Assembly: GCF_000003815.2 (NCBI RefSeq)
Contig: NC_049979.1
Coordinates: 13,984,850-14,048,849 of the forward strand
Direction: 5' to 3'
Origin: Branchiostoma floridae
Lineage: Eukaryota > Chordata > Leptocardii > Amphioxiformes > Branchiostomatidae
DNA: 64,000 bases
Shown here piece by piece: positions 25,575 through 45,200 of the stretch. The stretch's first letter is position 1. Each line of letters starts with the position of its first letter. Under the pieces are notes generated by a model. That model searched no databases, was not told the origin of the DNA, and saw only the letters and a program-made list of their open reading frames with translations. Position numbers and translations under genes: made by a program.

Positions 25575-27270
25575 TTACAAGTCCTTATCACTGCTGCCTA
25601 CAGGGGTTTCGGGATTGTCTACTTTTGTCTTGACATCATGAGAGAGTCCTGACAAGGAAGCTCGCATCTGGAAAAAGAGGAAAAAAATAACTTATTTCTG
25701 GTTTTGTTTAGTTTACACTTGGCAGCAACAATGGACTGAACATTTGTACAGTGTACAATATAACTGATATTTCTGCACCCTTCTGATGCATTTCAATAAA
25801 AGCAGCAGTGTCTCAACGACTTTGGACTGAGCAATGCACAAATTTTACCAATAATGGTATACTGATAAAAGGATTACAACTAAGCAAGTGTTAAATACAT
25901 CTCTCTACGTGTTCCTACATACCCGTTCATGACCAGTCCCGCGGGAAACACAACATAACAAATCACTCTGCTTGCCTAGATTTCTTAACAGCAAATACTT
26001 TGCAAAGTCCTGAACTGAGGTACATGCTGTTTCAGTGAGAGCCTATGTCTTATAAAACAGTACATTTGAATGCATCACGTTCAGCACTGTAAGCTATGTC
26101 TGTCATCGTACCTGATCTAATAACGTGACGGACGTGGCCAGCACCTCGCGCCACCTGTGCAGCTCCGCCTCGTGGAACTGCTGCTGCTGCTGGAGGAGCT
26201 GGATCCACTCCTCCGGACTCCTGGGGGTGTTACTGTGTACAACACAGAATACACACATTGGGCCACAGTAACTACATCTTATGGAGGACAGTCTTAGCAG
26301 ATGATCATCCGGACTCCTGGGGGTGTTACTGTGTACAACACAGAATACACACATTGGGCCACAGTTACTACATCTTATGGAGGACAGTCTTAGCAGAATG
26401 ATCATCTGGCACAATAGTGCACAAAAAACTGGGTCCTTTTTCTGATATTACTATTATTAGTGGCATTTTACATCACAGAAATGGAGACTGAAGATGATGC
26501 CCAGTAATGGACAAAAAGGGGTAGAGTTAACAGCACACATAGAGAACAGGAAGATCTTGAGGAAGCTACAGTCCCTAATGCTCCACGAAATGAGGATGAG
26601 ACTGGCAAGTTAAGTACATGTACAGTACATGTGTATGTTCTCATTTTTCAACAGTATCATTACACTTGCTTCAATAATCAGTCTTGTATTCTGTTGTAGT
26701 TCTACCTGGATGTGTACAATGCAGGACACAACACTCACCTGACCCAACTGACATCTTTAGCAGGCCATGGCTGCAGGCTGCTGGTGGCACGTTCTAGTGA
26801 CCAGACTCTGTACATGACCAGCAGGTTCAGCAGTAACAGGCACACCAGACTGCAGTAACAAGAGACAAGAGTTAGAATAGCATGAGGTACATGTAAGATT
26901 ACATTGTCTGAGAGGACCTGAGTAAAAGCAAACAGCTTGTCCAGTGCCTGTTCAGGTGGAACCAGTCTGGTGTTAAATATGATCTATACTACACAATACT
27001 GTATGGTATGCCATGGCAGCAACGTATAATTTTACCATCGCAAGTTTTCATCTAAACTTTGTCTTGGTAATCTGCATTCTGGTATCATGGTATTTCGAAA
27101 ACAAGGATATCTTTGCTGCATATATATTTGGGCAAAAGGTTACAGCATGTTTTAGCTACATGTACAATGTGATTTTATGACTTACATGATACAGATAGCC
27201 AGGAGACACTTGTGTGCATCCACATCTATGGGCCATGGTTGGCTGGGGCTTAGGTCCTCCCGGGTCTCTG
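25575..27270 (-). CDS. GRAMD1: GRAMD1 membrane anchor and C-terminal exons
   Basis: Exon 27186-27270 ends CLLAICIM and 26739-26849 continues LVCLLLLNLLVMYRVWSLER, together one transmembrane helix. Vertebrate GRAMD1A has NVLLFYRLWSLERT here. Exon 26112-26220 (EEWIQLLQQQQQFHEAELHR .. TLLDQ) corresponds to the vertebrate TEWAQLLESQQKYHDTELQK segment and should form a helix. The last exon 25575-25667 adds MRASLSGLSHDVKTKVDN .. DKDL and stops with TAA. The helix anchors the protein in the ER with the N-terminal domains in the cytosol. Confidence 0.9.
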
Positions 27271-30200
27271 CTGTAAGGTATACAATTGCTATGGTTGATC
27301 AGTGTTCTGGACAACAATTCTCTCAGTTCTGGAGCCATCTTCTATTCAAAACATCATCAATGGGGCAATGAAGCAAAATTTTCTTACCATATGGAACTGA
27401 TTAGCACTGTTTGAAAAACACTTGAGGGAATTACAAACATGTAAATATATAATTTTGTCATGATCAAACAATACCACCGTTTATCATCTGTCTCTGGGTT
27501 TATTACAATCTATACACTGTCAGTTGTTTGATCATCCTGACTAGATTGCATGACATTGTGTAATGAGGACCATGAGATTGTTAGCTACATACCAGACAGA
27601 ACTACAAACAGGAAAAATTGGCTGTGATTTGATGTCTCTTAAATTTTTCTGTCCTGATTCAGGGTAACACAGGCTTGTTTTTTTCATGTCTAACTTGCTT
27701 GCCCTAGCTAGGTACAGTTTCCTGCACCTGTTCTAGCCTTAGGTAAACTTCTCTGTATAATCTTACTCCTTAAATCTTATTTCTATTTTCATGTATTGAC
27801 TTTTATTCATGATCACTCTGTTACAAATATAGATGTTTGCACGATTGATTTCCAATCTGCAAAATCAGGGTAAATTGTCGTGTTCCCATTTCTGTGCTAA
27901 TTGCTAAATCAATGTTTAAATGATTTTGCTTTCTTGCTTTGTTTGACTGTGTCTGATATCTGCACCTGATGCCCTACCCTGTAGCCTCCTGTAGGGGTCA
28001 TTCTCTCCCAACCTGCCTGCACCTCTGTGACTCTCACTTCCGCTGTGCTTACGGACTAAGAAAATGATACAAGAGCAACAATTTTTGTCTGACTAGTAAA
28101 ATATAAGTAGAGTCTAACCCTAGTTAGTTTCTCAATGATCAATTCATTTTGGAGGTTCCCAATTCTCCTAATGTAGCATGATTTTGGACTAAACTTTTTG
28201 ATTTCAGGTTCTCCTGAACAGTTGATCAGGTTCTGATGGCATAAGATGTACACTGTACTCCAAGGAGTGGCCCTGTGCCAAGTACAACAACTAGGTTTTT
28301 CTGTGACCAGACGTCCCTTAGACAGCCCTGTTTGACTTACTTCTGGTGAGGGTTGGGGCCATGCTGACCAGGCTGGGGTTGGGTGCGGCTGCAGACTGTG
28401 GTCCTGTGATGGAGATCTCCGGTGGGCGTGGCTGGTACGTGTAGTTGGACGTTCGTTTTCTCCGCCGTACACTGCTGGTCAGACCCTTTTTCCTGGGAGT
28501 TGGAGGCTGGCAGGCGTCAGACACTTTGTCTAAATGCCGACNNNNNNNNNNNNNNNNNNNNNNNNNNNNNNNNNNNNNNNNNNNNNNNNNNNNNNNNNNN
28601 NNNNNNNNNNNNNNNNNNNNNNNNNNNNNNNNNNNNNNNNNNNNNNNNNNNNNNNNNNNNNNNNNNNNNNNNNNNNNNNNNNNNNNNNNNNNNNNNNNNN
28701 NNNNNNNNNNNNNNNNNNNNNNNNNNNNNNNNNNNNNNNNNNNNNNNNNNNNNNNNNNNNNNNNNNNNNNNNNNNNNNNNNNNNNACCTAAATGCTTAAA
28801 GTTTTTCCAGAATTCCATGAACCAGCATTCTTTTTTTATGATATTCTGAACCAAGCCCCCAAAACAGTTTTCCTGTACTTGATTTCACTGCTTACCCTGG
28901 GATAAGAGGGGAAAAATTGTGTCATATTTTAATACTGAGTATCAACAGTGAGCCTCAGTGCTCCATAATTCTCCAAAAGAAAAAATTCACCATGAACTGT
29001 TTAAAAAAATCTGGGTTTTCAACACTGAAGCTGCAGCTGTTGAAAACTGAACATGGGCCACCTCAAATAAAATCTTCATCTTTTTCTTGGAGGTTATTAA
29101 CATTTAACCCTATCCAGACTGGGGTGGGTGGGCTTAAAGTGCCCGCGGCAACTTTGACCCCCTATAGCTCCCAAACGACTTGTGCTAGAACAACCAAACT
29201 TGGTGAGTTTTCCTGAAATATTGTTGGCAACAATTTTTAAAAAATTGGGGAAGTTTATGATTTTTCGTGTTGCCATGGCAACGGGTTTCTGAAAGGCAAA
29301 TTTTACAAAAATCACTAATTTTGGTTTAAACAATGGGATTTTAAGATTTTCTTGCTAAACTAAACATCTTTTCATATATCTTTAATATCTAAGACATCTT
29401 AGTTGAACATTTATAATTAAATATTCATAAATTATGCTAATGAGATGACATAGTTGGTCAAAATCCAAGATGGCCGACAATATCATGATGAAAAGTATAA
29501 CAAGCTTATTTTCACTCAAATTTCATCACTACTTGGTATTTTCTTACAGAAAACATTCATTTGAATGTTTTTAATCCATTTTCAAGGGGTTTTAGCATTA
29601 TATGTTGAAAAAAATGTATCTTGAAAAATTTAAGGTAGATAATCCAAGATGGCGGATAGCTAAACTACAGATGACATCATTCTATGACGTCATTTTGACG
29701 ACGTTACATCGGCTTTTGACAACAGAAGTCTTATAACACTTAAATATTAATAAGAAACCTTTATTGGTAACTTTTTGAGTGAGATATTTAGGTATTATGG
29801 GAATTCCCCGTTTTAGCCAAAAATATCAATCAATGACGTCATAATTACTTCATATTACGTCATAATGATATAAAAATTTCAGGAATTATAAAACTCGATG
29901 AGCACAACCTTCCCTGCAAATTTGGTGATCGTACAGTAAGCCATTTTGAAAATACGAAGGGGGGGTCGAATGAGCCCCCCCCAGGCCAGGGAAGGCCCAA
30001 AAAGCCCAGTCTGGATAGGGTTAAAGTTGAAGTTGAAACATTAAATATTAAAAAGAGAAGTACTGTAGATGTAAATCACATGATATCAATAAAACAGAAT
30101 GTATTGTAAGCCAAAATGTATATCTTCCATTATTGTTGCTGACATAGCAGCATACTCCATGAAGCACAACTCAAGGTTCTTAGGCCAAAGATGTACAGAG

Positions 30201-36200: not shown

Positions 36201-39200
36201 CAGCTCTGACGGGTCCATTGGGAGACCAGAACATGGGGTCTATTATGAATATTTGAATACCCTGACCTTATATTGTGATTGGCGGATGGCCCAGAGATGA
36301 GAGTTGTCAACATGATCATAACCACACACATGAAATGATTCTGGGAGGGACAGGTACTATAGGACTGGTACAGATTAACAATGCAGAAAGATGTTATCAA
36401 CTTGAACCAAAAACATCAGGAAAGATTGGCGCTGAAAACATTTTATGCAGCCCCCATAAACCTTAAAACTATACAATACAATACCTATCAATAAGCACTG
36501 CTGGTTCAAACCTACAACAAGAAGGCTAAAATAGAAGTCTACATGGACTATCTACAGTTCAGCGTATACACACTGACTACATCATTGTGTTTTAAAATTT
36601 TCAATAACATTTCTGAATCAGAAGACCACATATTTGGTTTACCTTGTTTAGTTTGAGAAACATGGAATGGTACTAATGTTGCCCTTCGGGGAAAGGTGGG
36701 CGTGTACACATTGGAGATGACACATTGATTACATCCAAAAGTCAAATGCAATCTAGAGGTGATAAGAGCAAAAACACTGATGACAATTACAGATATCTAG
36801 CACTACAGTTATCAGGGAAACATCAAGGACTTGTCATGGTACTTCTACTTCAATCATTTTTGTAGTACATTCCATAAGTTGTAGGATTAGAAAAAAAAAT
36901 GATGGCAAAGGGGAGACAATGTCACAGAAAGGTGAAACAAAATGGCTAATAGATAATAGATAACTGTCCCACCAAAAAGACATTGAAAAAAAGCCAAAAC
37001 AAGTCCTGCTTGGAGATCATATTTTGACTGGACTTAGTCAACATCCCACTCCATAATGATGAGGTCTTCCATTTATTATATGTGATTGATTAACAGTGCT
37101 GACAGATGTTAAAGTAGAGGGGGGATCCATATTGAAAAACATACACAGTACATAAAGGTGTGTAGTGTACCAAAGGTTGTGTGGACAGTGGAACATAAAA
37201 GAGCCTTTTTTCACCAAAGCACACATGCTATACAAAGAAGCACAAAAATAACAATATAAAGTTCATACATTATTCAATAGGAAGTGCTGGCAGTACAGTA
37301 TCCAACATGCAACCTATTACTATTTTTAGTATCTAATGCTGTTTTTTTTTTACTTGGGTGGCAATCAAATGGTGATTGGGGAAAATACAAAATAATCTAT
37401 GTACAAAACTGTAGTTAAAATTTTACAAATGCCAAGCTTTAAGGCTATATCCAAATTTGGGACCTTTTTCAATTCTAAATTTTCAGCTTGGGTAATTAGG
37501 ATCCTTAATGAAAATTTTAAAATTTGATTGCTATTACAAGTACATATGAATACTTGTAAAAATGCAACTAAAACAAGTAAATGTGATGAAAATATGAGAC
37601 CCTGAGTGCTACCTACATGTACATTGTATATAGGAAACTGTTATGGTCCCACAGGCACCCCATTTTATCCTATCTGTAGTCAGCTAAGTACCCTTTCTGC
37701 TCCGGGGGATGTAATACATTACATGCAGGTGCCATAAATAAAACAGGTCTGATACTAGCCCCAGGTTACACATTGGACAGTGCATCCAACCCAATGAAAT
37801 AGGGATGCAATCTTATATCAGCTCTCAAAGGGTTTGTTCCTGCAGTGTGACTATGAAGGATCAACCTAGTTTGAGGTACTGCAATTCGCTCTGTCTCTGC
37901 TAGGAGGAGCAGGTCTATGACTAACCATAGGTGAGTCCACAGAGCTGAGGCGTGAGGGCTCACTGCTGGCAGGGCTGGGGATGGGGCTGGCCGCTCTCTG
38001 TGGAGTCCTGCTCCCAGTGCTGCCCTCCCCTTTCTTTGCATTCAAGTCCTCTGTTAGAGAAGACAGACGAGTCAAATTTTCATCACTTTTATTGTACAGA
38101 ATGTGTTAAACTTAATAACAGCCTCTTATATGTAGCCATGTTGTAACCAGTGATCTTGGAGTTCTCTACCAATGTTAGCCCTTGATAATGGCTTACAGCT
38201 AGTTGGACAACCTTGGCTGTATATACAGTCAAATGAATACGAATAAACATTGAGGTAAAGGGGTTACCAAAGGAAACGTGTGACATATCAGTCATCACAC
38301 TTACAATAGTCAAAGAAAGAAAATTCATGCAATTACAACCTCCATCAATAGACCATATCATATGATGCCAATATGGGATGTATCAAGCCAGTTCTGGATA
38401 CATTCATGCTGTATGTAAGTGATAATAAATAGTTCCATAGCTCCAAGTGTGAAAAAAATTATTTTCTTCTTCTTACCTGGCCATCTTGTGATTCCCCTTA
38501 CCGTTGATTTATATTTTTTTGGCAGTGTATAAAAGTGAAAGGCTACGGATACAAAAATAGTCCTTCACCAAATTTTGCACCAAAACAGTTGTCTAATTCC
38601 GACCTGTGGCATCATCATTGTCATCCTTGACATCAGCGACTGATTCTTCCACGATGTCATTCTCATTTTCTGCTGCAGAAGGGCAGATGTAATCCTCATC
38701 ATCGCTAGTTAAGCCTAGCTCCTCACCGTAACTCTGGTGAACATACTGCCAGAGTTCAGAGGGACTGAGTGGCTGTGTAAGAGACAGAGAGGACAGGTGA
38801 ATGTGGGAGGCTCGACTAGTTACCTGTGCTCTTACTGTCTGTTGCTGAGTCCTCCTCCTCACTACTGAAGTCCATCTCCCCATTGGTCAGTTTGAAGTAC
38901 TGCCACAGTTCGGAGGGGCTGAGTGGCTGAGGATGACCAATGGGAACACAAATAAAAACTCAGGTTCTTACCCATACTATCTCGTTCACTCAAGATGTTA
39001 GTCATCATTTTCACACTAAAGGATTTGAATTACAAGGCAGATAGATGCCAACAGGAGGATAGATTTGAGTTGTTATCATCTTTAGTGCTGTCTATTGCAT
39101 GTACGTGTGTTGTCTGATGGATAGTCTCACCAAATGTGTGCAAGTTTTCACAATAAACATGTATTTTACCCACACCCTATTGATGCAGTTTTGCTAAATA

Positions 39201-42200
39201 TGACTTTGAGACTATGCCCATTGCCAAGCAGCAGAACAAAGGTTGGAGAGTGAGGAAGAGGACAGGGTGCACCATTACATAAGTCATATTACATTATTAC
39301 AATAAGGCAGCATTATACAATGTAGAAAGTTCTCAGATATCCTTCCGCTCGTCAGAGCAAATTTTCACACATGAAATTACATTTCTCTACTGATGTGCCA
39401 TGCAGAAAAAAGACTTTCACGTAGTCAAATACCTGGGATGGCTACATTTTTAACATGTCCTAGTCACAAACATCCTGTATTGTTGTGTTACACTTCTAGT
39501 GTTCTGTCAATATCAGAAATGAAAGCATATATCTCTGAATGTCAACTGTGACAGACGTACTGACCTTTTCCAGTAAGGCATTCTGCCAAATCCTGAAGAT
39601 CATCATGTAGACACTGTCTCGTTGGGTGAAGGATGTCAGGAAATGCTGAAAACCAGACATCTGCACATCAGCTTTACTCAGCACGGTAGTTAACTGTTTA
39701 TTCTGACACTTAGAATTACTGTAGCCAGGTCACAACTACTTGACTAATACATAGGCAGGCATCCAACCAAATACTTTTAAAAGGGCAACAGCTATATAAA
39801 TGTTTTTGAATAGGATGCATCAGATGCCAGTAAAATTTTATGTAAAAAACTCTTACTTACAAAAAAACTCTATTCTTTGTTCCAAAGGCTTCAATATGCA
39901 AGGTAATTAGAATTTTGCTTGAAGAACATTTGGAAATCAAAATCTTACATGGGAAATTCTAAGGTTTAGCATTTCTAGTAATTTCTAAACACCTAAGCAA
40001 TAATGCAATATGACCCCTACCTTCTCGTTTTCTGTGCAGATCTGGATGGCGTTGGGTATGACTTTGGCAGTTTTCTCCTTGGTGATGGAGGTGATGTCCT
40101 TACATCTGATTGTCAGCTGTGGGGAGGGAGCAACAGGCAAGGTCACATACCAACGCATCATGCCTCCTTCATGGCCATACATGTAACCACTCTGATGTTC
40201 CTACTTTGTTCTCTACAGCATGTTGCTAAAGAACAACTTTTCCTACTGAACTTCTGCTAATAGTAGAAATGTAAACTTCTAGATCTGACTTTGTGGCGCC
40301 TGCTGAGATAACACAATCAATAACAAATATCCAAGATATGGAAAAAGGATATTGATCTTAAAAAATAGTGATTTATGCTTGGGGAGTACTTCCTTGTCAA
40401 TGTCAGTATCAAACAGCCCAACTTCACTGTTGGAGACAAAAAGGTGACCACTCACTTACAGAAAAAAAGGATAGTTACATGGTGTCTAATACTCTAAAAG
40501 CATCTCATCCATAAAATTGTAGTGGCACTGGACTTCCCCACATGCAAACTATAAATTTAGGATAGGGCAAGAGTTAAGGTTATGGCAATATTGGGGCACA
40601 TACACAATGTATATGTATATGCATACACCCCAAGCTGCATATTTGCTTGGTCATCATGATGGGTATCAACCTGAAATTGGAAACAAGTCTTGACAAGTGA
40701 TTACTCTTTCTTACAGTATGTTACAAAGCAATTGGTACCTACCCATGCTTTACAACCAAAAAGGGCCAGAGATGCACACCCAAGTACAGGTAGCTTGGGT
40801 CTCAGCAATGGCATCATTTTGGGAAATGGAAACATTTTTCAAATGCCAAATAGAAATGCAAGGCAAAGGGAGAAGGTGCCGACTGGACCACGCTGCTGGG
40901 AATGTGCTGCAATGCAGCCAGAAAGTTCACCCAGAAAGAAAAACTGAAGTTGATGGAATGTGCGTCAACTTCATTAAGAGCTAAATGCCACAATGTCGTA
41001 ATGTCTAGCGACAAGCAAGCGTTTTTGTCCTTACATCTGGTACAGTGCGTCAGAGGACCTATCTTTTACACCTTGGTGATAATGAATGAGATTGGGCCAG
41101 ATACAAACTCTAGGAGCCAGCTGGGACTCTGCAAAAACTGCTTGGGGTCAGGCAATGTGACAGCAAGTTTTGTTCCCTCTGCTTCCCACAATAAACATAG
41201 GGTTCATTACATGACACAAACAACAAATACTTTAGTGTAAGGCCACAAAATGTGCCATGAAAATCCCAAAATTGTCCATAATATATATCAATACCTCAAA
41301 TTGAAAATAAATCAATAGCAACATGTGCTGAAAAACAGACATATATCACGTCAAGTTCATACCAAATTACAAATTATTTTGGCTACGTCAGTTGATTAAG
41401 GGATATCTATGACTTTTTACTGCAACCTCGTAATGTTACGTAAGATGCAGAACTTCCCTTAGAAAAGGACATCTATGTCTAGAAGTATTATTAACACTAT
41501 TAACAGTGAAAGGGTCAAAACATTGCCATCCCATGTTAGAAAATCATAAAACTCTTTCTTCCCAGAGATGCAGTATTTTTCTTTCCTACCATTTCATAAG
41601 ATTAAGGCCCAATCTACACACAGGTTTTACCGATATCTGTGGAGATGTCGGGAGGGATCTAGAACGTAGGGGGCCGGACACCCATGGCGCTTGCAGTCAT
41701 AAACATATAGCACGATTTTCCAAATGGCGTTATATGCTAATGAGCCTTCCCGAAGTCGGGAAGCATCTACACGCGTGCGAAGCTGTCAGGGACCCCTGCT
41801 AAGCTATCGGTAAGGTATCGTACGGATGGTCCGGACCTTTCGGGAGAAATTTTCCTGATATCGTAATGGCGATATAGTAGTTCCATCTAGACTATGAAAA
41901 AAAGCTGTCGGCGAGAGGTTGTAGGCTCGCCGATATCGGGAAAAACTGTGTGTAGATCGTGCCTAAGGCTCCTTCAATAAAACAGAGTTCCTGAGCCATG
42001 AGCTCATCAAGCACAAAATACCAAACAGAATCAATTGCAAGAGATGAAAACACAGCTGTGGCAACTTGAGCTGTTTGCTATACTTCTGTGCGATTATAAT
42101 CATGTAATAGGACTACGTTGTTCACAACTCGTCTCTCATCACATTAAATTGCCCATCACAAAACTACCTGTAACCATTGTGCTGCTTGTGGTTTCCACAA

Positions 42201-45200
42201 CAACCACTTTAATCTTAACTGTGTAAAAAAAATGTCGGGAAGAGCAGATACCATAGGAAATAGTTTGGACTTTTTTGTTTGTTTCAATTACCATTTTTGT
42301 TGATGATGTCTTTGACTACCCTTTCTACTTTGTAATGACAAAAGATATCTTCATCTCTGGCCAGCAAACCTTTCTAATGGGAGAGATACAAAGGCCTGGA
42401 CTACCATTCATATATTCTGTATGTATGGAGGTCACATTTCATGCCTGTACTCACCAAAGTCTCCCATCTAAAGATGTTGGCGTAAAAGCAGACCCAATTT
42501 TCTGTGAGATAAAGTCTGCCATGGACCAGGATGTCCTTCTGCAGGGCACAGGAGTAGTCTAGAACACAGTTTGAGAACAAAATGTGGTAAATGTTCCAGC
42601 ATAAATCTTGTCATATACCTTGGGGCCACATTTGACAGACAACAGTCATTCCGTCGTGCTAATGTCATTGTCCAAGATGCCTCCGGCAACGGTATTTTCA
42701 GGCTGTCTATCATTAGAAGACAATCAAAAAAAGTCATGCGACGTTTTTTTCTCAAATCATTGTGCTACGACCTCAGAGCTGGTCGTGTGACCCTTCAGTG
42801 GGGGTCTGTGACTATATACACATCTAAAAGAGGAATCGTCACCAGCAAAGGAAGTGGATCATATGCTAATAAGCCTGCAGTGTGTTATTTTCTGCCCGAA
42901 AAGAAAAACTACATTTTCTTTCTAAACATACATGTAGTCAGTAATGGAAACATATATTTGTTCCAGTGCAATGCCTGGCCACCTGGTTATTATTATTTCA
43001 TCCATGGCATTGCCCCTATTCCTTGATCTATATTACTGCTGACGTCCATGAATGCAGGGTTCAATTCCAGATTTTGCTGTCTCTGCATGTCATGAATCTT
43101 ATCCTTTGAAGAGGACACTGCAGGCGTTCTGAACGCTTCTAAAGACAATCGTTGCCCACAACGATAAACACACGAGTATGTAACTGTCTAAAGTTCTAAA
43201 GGCCTAAAGTTGCCCTTAGTGTGTTTGTACAACATCACAAACTAAAATTCATACCCCCACATGACATGCACATGTGCACTTATGAATGTTGTTCCTGTTA
43301 CTTACCTACAAGTAATCTTTCTGTTTCGGGCAGATGCTTGAAAAGCTTGTGGAAATCTTCACACTTTGACTTGTATGTTGGATGCAGCATCTACAGATAC
43401 AAGGAATAAGAATAAAACTGACAAACTATGGCAGGAAGAAAAATTGTTATAAAAAAAACTTGAAATTAAACTTAAATTAAAGTTTGTTGTTTTTTCTGTG
43501 ATCCTGAATGACAAAGACTGTAGAATAGGGACCACTTATTAAGGAGTGTAGAAATCACATTTCTAACTTCAGGAGTAACTAGATTTAAGGGAAAATCTGG
43601 ATAAAACCAAAGAGGTTAAATGTCATTTGTAAGTTGTTTTATCCCAAACCTGGTCTTTTGGGCCAGAATCACATTTGCATGGCTACAGATTGAGTTTGCA
43701 GCTCACAACTTATAGATGAGCATGAGGCTAAACAGGTGACTGATGTTTCTCCAGAATCTGGTGTTCTAAGAACTCAGATAAGACAGAGTGAACCTGGTTT
43801 CAATCTTAACACGACCTAAAAAAAAAGGCCTAGAATGTTGTTGTGCACGAACTGTTTGTCAACCGTAATATAGGTCTGGTTATATTACACATGGCTCATG
43901 ATCTTTTACTTTGAACAAGGATAATGTGTAGGAACATTAATTTTAAGTACTTGAAGATCAACTGCAACCAGTACAATACAATACTCACCTGTGCAGTGCT
44001 TAAGGTTAAACAACTTGCTGATAGCCCCATTTGGCCGAATGGGGTATTGAAGTGGTCAAAGAGCAGTTTTAGCTAATACCCATGACCTGTTTACTTTTAC
44101 TTACACTTAAATACAAACAAATAACTGAGTGAGAAATGAAAGCGGGGTTATTGGAAAGCCTACTGTGACTATTGTTATTGCAAAGGTTACATGATAAATG
44201 TTAATGTTAGTAGCTTTCATGCAAGAAGTAAGCAGAACAAACAGCGCTGCTTAAATAGGGCACAAGCACGTCACACCTTCTATAAACTTGACCTTCTACC
44301 AAGCTCACAGTACAGGAAGGAGGGTGCAATAATTGCAATCAATATAGGTAACACTTACATTGTACCAATTTGATGATTTCTGCAAGACAATACGAAACAG
44401 ATTTAGTACTGAGCAGTGAATTAGTGGTTGTGTCACACAGTACATGACAATACCAAGGCTGCAGCACCGTGTGTATGTGACATGCTCCATGCATATAATG
44501 AACATGTGCCGTCAAGACAGTACCTGTTGGACTCCAGCGTGGAGGACACATCACAAGCTACTACTGAACTGTTACAACATGAAGCATGTACCACAGATGT
44601 CCCCAGGGTTTAGTGGCAAGCGCAAATTTCAGTCTGTAGGAGATTCAATTTCCTCTACATATAGATGTTGACAAAGTTTCATTCCAAATTTCAGTGATTG
44701 TTGCTAAAATATCCTGTGAAATATTATAGCACCATGTTACACAGTTTCAAATACAGCTATCACTGCATCTTGAACAGGTGTTATAACAGTCCCAATATTT
44801 TAATACTGATAACAAAGAAGGTAAACCTTTAAAGGCGCCCTCTCACAGTTTGCGTCACGTCAAAGATAAAGAATGAATTTTACTACTTTTTGTGTATTTT
44901 GTCATCTTCTAAGTCATACTTTTGCGTATTATGCAATATCTAGATTATAAAAAATTGGACAAAATAACAAAACAGTGACGCAGTGAATGAACCCCGCAGT
45001 GACTCAAGCTTGACGCCAGTGCAGTGAGAGTGCACCTTAAGAAGCTTTTGCCACTTGTTTTGTGAAACTTAACAGTCGACTTCTACCTGTGTCCTGGGGA
45101 CAATCCTGGCTCATCCTACAGACTGTCACAATTAATGTGTCATGCAGCAGTCATCATGCTTTCATCAACCATTTCTACATATACATGTACTCAGACATGA

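Follow-up and report, generated by a model that had tools for sequence, protein, structure and literature searches.

Tandemly duplicated exons behind the GRAM domain of a GRAMD1/Aster-type gene in Branchiostoma floridae as a probable mutually exclusive pair

Mutually exclusive use of tandemly duplicated exons is a well-known kind of splicing switch. On the minus strand of a 64,000-nucleotide stretch of the Branchiostoma floridae genome (contig NC_049979.1), which was analysed as a whole and is called the window here, a GRAMD1 (Aster)-type cholesterol-transport gene carries two similar exons, designated A and B, directly behind its GRAM domain, and the question raised by this locus is whether the two form such a switch. 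In the scheme considered here, the exon following the GRAM domain would have been duplicated in tandem to provide a GRAMD1/Aster-type sterol-transfer gene with two alternative exons, and the duplicated exons are probably used in a mutually exclusive manner, with each transcript carrying exactly one of them.

The gene was assigned to the GRAMD1/Aster type because both a GRAM and a VASt/ASTER domain are present, a layout that it shares with human GRAMD1a, GRAMD1b, and GRAMD1c (Aster-A, Aster-B, and Aster-C). Pfam GRAM (PF02893) was detected in the spliced protein with an E-value of 2.9e-23 when exon A was included and 1.9e-23 when exon B was included, and Pfam VASt/ASTER (PF16016) was detected with an E-value of 3.9e-29 after three exon pieces had been joined in silico. 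The GRAM part also matches two solved sequences, 4tyz (described as "uncharacterized protein", E 1.8e-9) and 5yqr (a Lam6 fusion/Lam6 GRAM structure, E 1.2e-7). A hydrophobic open stretch inside 26738-26983 is a candidate C-terminal transmembrane segment, and 0 Pfam families matched a C-terminal piece of the gene. Between the VASt and C-terminal pieces lies a run of N (28542-28785), where some coding sequence may be missing. A search of prokaryote genome contigs for relatives gave 105 pattern matches and 0 confirmed ones, as expected for an animal gene. The features around the exon pair are listed in Table 1.

Table 1. Exons and intron of the GRAMD1/Aster-type gene around the duplicated pair (positions in the window)
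Feature	Position	Strand	Details
GRAM-domain exon	42455..42558	-	DYSCALQKDILVHGRLYLTENWVCFYANIFRWETL; Pfam GRAM PF02893 on spliced protein
GRAM-domain exon	40021..40116	-	LTIRCKDITSITKEKTAKVIPNAIQICTENEK; phase 0 out
Last GRAM exon, common upstream exon of the pair	39565..39645	-	ends ...WQNALLEK; phase 0 out
Alternative exon B	38824..38926	-	103 nt; PLSPSELWQYFKLTNGEMDFSSEEEDSATDSKST; phase 0 in / 1 out; donor CAG/GTAACT
Intron separating exons B and A	38773..38823	-	51 nt; GT-AG
Alternative exon A	38604..38772	-	169 nt; PLSPSELWQYVHQSYGEELGLTSDDEDYICPSAAENENDIVEESVADVKDDNDDAT; phase 0 in / 1 out; weak donor CAG/GTCGGA
Possible short exon A (predicted)	38727..38772	-	inner donor ACG/GTGAGG; phase 1 out
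Common downstream exon	37926..38050	-	EDLNAKKGEGS...SVDSPM

The coordinates, lengths, GT-AG borders, and phases that a first-pass annotation had given for the two exons and the intron between them were all recovered, as was the start PLSPSELWQY in both exons, and in-silico joins bear out its claim that inclusion of A and B together shifts the frame. The frame stays open with exon A alone or with exon B alone. When B is joined to A, the product reads ...KSTATQSL*, and its stop codon starts 14 nt into exon A and leaves 152 nt of that exon downstream; when both exons are skipped, it reads ...LLEKRT*, with the stop two codons on. Retention of the 51-nt intron brings an in-frame stop two codons past exon B (KSTGN*), and read-through of the exon A donor ends the frame at DATGRN*. 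Given these outcomes, only transcripts with exactly one exon of the pair can encode a full-length protein, unless inner splice sites are used. The pair thus has the features of tandemly duplicated exons, in that the two are adjacent and homologous, have equal entry and exit phases, and are unproductive when both or neither are included.

Mechanistically, joining of B to A would be disfavoured if the candidate branch points are too near the donor of exon B, and any leftover messages with double inclusion or double skipping, which carry early stops, would be expected to be removed by nonsense-mediated decay. Within the 51-nt intron, from which GG is absent, candidate branch adenines are located 20, 22, and 26 nt from the B donor, all of them after the last internal AG and clear of the acceptor; the yUnAy pattern fits the adenine at 26 and also one at 46, which is 5 nt from the intron end. 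The steric threshold for the distance between donor and branch point is quoted in PMC7969005 as about 50 nt, and with the branch points predicted here, a steric block of B-A joining by the 51-nt intron is plausible. Such exclusion is not guaranteed, since human introns of 43, 49, and 56 nt do get spliced (PMC4463651; see also PMC8363638); according to PMC4463651, those of 43 and 49 nt are G-rich and without normal sites, and the 56-nt intron has effective ordinary sites and leaves as a lariat. With respect to a Dscam-like mechanism, in which competing RNA structures with paired docking and selector sites bring about exclusion, the predicted fold of the 323-nt stretch that holds the pair was unremarkable (z 0.37).

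These spliced human introns, together with the early stop of the B+A join, also speak for a different reading, with exon B as a poison exon: splicing would remove the 51-nt intron, the B+A frame would stop, and nonsense-mediated decay would lower expression. The acceptor tract of exon A is good in this respect (14 of 17 pyrimidines), though that of exon B is nearly equal (13 of 17). A pure poison exon would need no in-frame exit downstream and no constraint at the protein level, whereas exon B exits in phase 1 and bears signs of such constraint, as described below, and we consider it unlikely that exon B serves only to lower expression.

Several known systems can be compared with the proposed mutually exclusive pair. 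Alpha-tropomyosin is the textbook example of exclusion by a branch point that is too near the upstream donor, a mechanism that was tested there and is suggested here for the window pair. Exons 4a and 4b of OGDH are likewise duplicated, and their double inclusion or skipping is called unproductive in PMC7969005, where human branch points at a distance of 25-41 nt from the upstream donor, which is below about 50 nt, are stated to enforce exclusion. The branch points of OGDH were mapped and its isoforms measured, whereas the candidate branch adenines of the window pair come from sequence; in addition, a large pyrimidine tract separates the OGDH branch points from a distant 3' splice site (PMC7969005), whereas the window intron has 51 nt in total. 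Exons Ab and 3 of U2AF1 resemble the window pair in being duplicated and in that inclusion of both or neither leads to stop codons and decay, but the U2AF1 isoforms differ at seven residues, whereas the second half of the window exons is far more diverged and their lengths are unequal; the choice in U2AF1 depends on regulatory factors that target the branch point and the pyrimidine tract (PMC5224494).

Homology of the two exons is indicated by reciprocal tblastn searches of exons A and B against the whole window (E 3e-5 and 5e-6), and the same two queries found no extra exon copy in the window better than E 0.15. When 39200-38824 was compared with 38823-38300 by blastn, one strong match was obtained (E 7e-9), which corresponds to the exon start and its CAG. 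An extension of the duplication into the introns was rejected, the remaining blastn matches being short and at E 0.29 or worse, and so was an assembly or haplotype duplicate, the copies differing at 25 of 81 aligned bases. The alignment of A and B comprises 27 codons with one A codon gapped; at the ends of the exons, 7 complete codons of B and 28 of A do not align and were omitted. The tblastn results, phases, and joins together uphold the earlier reading of the pair as homologous exons with an exactly-one frame logic. Exon A presumably resembles vertebrate GRAMD1 text.

In one respect the first-pass annotation has to be corrected, as its statement that exon B swaps in a short acidic tail is unsupported in that wording. 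Exon B retains an acidic cluster in register, such that FKLTNG-EMDFSSEEEDS of B corresponds to VHQSYGEELGLTSDDEDY of A. With the register set by the identical exon start, the similarity over codons 11-27 (5 of 17 residues identical and 10 of 17 positive in BLOSUM62, the gapped E excluded) was reached by 41 of 100,000 shuffles. Without a fixed register, the likeness of the tails was not significant (1,098 of 10,000 shuffles), nor was a global alignment of 17 against 18 tail residues (1,093 of 10,000), and the tail part preceding the acidic cluster showed no A/B likeness (9,353 of 10,000). Because the free-register tests were null, the likeness beyond residue 10 consists mainly of the acidic cluster. 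Exon B is without about 22 residues of the further acidic linker of A; counted with the junction E, acidic residues number 18 and basic ones (K or R) 1 among the 57 of the A segment, against 9 and 2 among the 35 of the B segment.

The differences between the copies are distributed as in coding sequence, with 4, 5, and 16 of the 25 at codon positions 1, 2, and 3, respectively, and the excess at third positions over the 27 codons has a P of 0.0016. Distances between A and B were estimated as dN 0.25 and dS 2.19 by NG86 and as dN 0.22 and dS 1.15 by LWL85. The four differences within codons 1-10 are all synonymous, an outcome with a chance of 0.13-0.25% for four random changes. The evolution of copy B with and without coding constraint was then simulated at six distances with 4,000 runs each, a match being defined as at least 16 differences at third positions, no more than 14 at the amino-acid level, and no stop (observed: 16, 12, and 0). 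Across the six distances, 0.025-0.5% of the runs with a neutral copy B matched the pattern, and at the three largest, 3.0-31.5% of those with a constrained copy did. At 0.2-0.4 changes per site, the two cases were not separable (neutral 0.1-0.5%, constrained 0-0.85%); the dS estimates favour the larger simulated distances. For codons 11-27 alone, the third-position excess was weaker (P 0.021), and the simulation gave matches in at most 2.7% of neutral runs and up to 23.5% of constrained runs, which did not differ from each other when the distance was one of the two shortest. On these sequence comparisons, the A/B pair is an old tandem duplication in which both copies show signs of coding constraint, and we infer that copy B has persisted through use. 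Because both duplicated copies look coding, exon B is most likely a real alternative exon.

A decaying, disused duplicate would agree with the weak likeness of the tails when the register is left free and with the failure of the short simulated distances to tell a neutral copy B from a constrained one. Against such decay, exon B has kept an open frame and intact splice borders despite a dS above 1 by two methods, its donor scores above that of exon A (8.77 against 4.38, with a donor matrix), and it shows a third-position excess, the simulated pattern being matched by a neutral copy in no more than 0.5% of runs, which makes disuse of exon B appear quite improbable.

The first-pass annotation had overlooked that the donor of exon A is weak and that a stronger donor in phase lies within the exon. 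By the same matrix, CAG/GTCGGA of exon A scores lowest (4.38), five other donors of the gene ranging from 6.29 to 8.82, and because of this weakness the real use of exon A may differ from the form drawn here. An inner donor in exon A at 38727, ACG/GTGAGG, which is in phase 1, scores 8.99, and two weaker in-phase donor-like sites within exon B score 5.03 and 5.56, all with this matrix. Use of the inner donor would give a predicted third isoform that reads ...HQSYEDLNAKK, with the acidic stretch gone; alternatively, this donor may be incidental, its GT sitting in Gly-Glu codons. A short GRAM-only protein, made by retention of the 51-nt intron or read-through of the weak exon A donor and possibly by polyadenylation in the next intron, is very improbable, for although in-frame stops stand at both places and an AATAAA is found at 38093 in the intron after A, about 40 nt ahead of the next exon, the same motif is present at 39702 and 37077 of the scanned stretch as well, and both exons retain an exit phase that fits the downstream exon.

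With regard to function, the two predicted proteins can be placed on human GRAMD1b, of which a GRAM construct spanning residues 92-207 has been used to sense cholesterol and anionic lipids (PMC7957428). In an ungapped hand numbering, residue 207 falls on the K of LLEK, at which the A/B swap starts, and since the swap begins at the end of this construct, both isoforms share the sensing core. By the same ungapped hand numbering, 6 of 10 residues named in PMC7957428 match (K161, Q173, F182, T184, F186, and R189), and R166, G187, A188, and R191 differ in the window protein. In a hand alignment, exon 39645-39565 has T at the position of GRAMD1b G187 and S at that of R191, with R189 kept; Thr at GRAMD1b position 187 is reported to be without effect in PMC7957428. 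In the predicted isoforms, then, the GRAM core is identical and the change is confined to the segment directly behind it. We infer that the swap serves to tune recruitment to membranes or the binding of partners and not sterol transfer itself; the searched portions of PMC7957428 and PMC6905856 give no function for the post-GRAM acidic stretch.

Should both exons prove to be in use, a single gene would provide two Aster proteins with a common GRAM core and a different segment behind it, a natural experiment on the role of the acidic stretch after GRAM. The very short intron would then also join the cases in which the minimal distance between donor and branch point can be tested.

The suggestion that such a switch is undescribed for Aster proteins agrees with a search of the open-access literature, conducted mostly at the level of listed matches. 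No such pair occurred among the matches listed for GRAMD1 with mutually exclusive exons or isoforms, and a GRAMD1 pair was not described among those listed for exon pairs of amphioxus or lancelets. Literature matches for Gramd1a and GRAMD1C named these genes, in the matched portions, in tables on other matters; the searched part of PMC4082322, a paper matched for GRAMD1B, gave no splicing match, and four motif peptide strings from this analysis had no match in the open-access literature. "GRAMD" is absent from the searched text of PMC9741552 on human tandem duplicated exons, in which "intron" is absent too, so this text may be incomplete.

A separate duplication was observed further along the gene, where 26212-26406 is a tandem repeat with a period of 96, 2 copies, and 97% matches. 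By eye, it appears to span the end of an intron, the acceptor, and the beginning (codons for NTPRSP) of a late exon in the GRAMD1-type gene, which results in two near-identical acceptor regions; this repeat is probably recent and possibly polymorphic.
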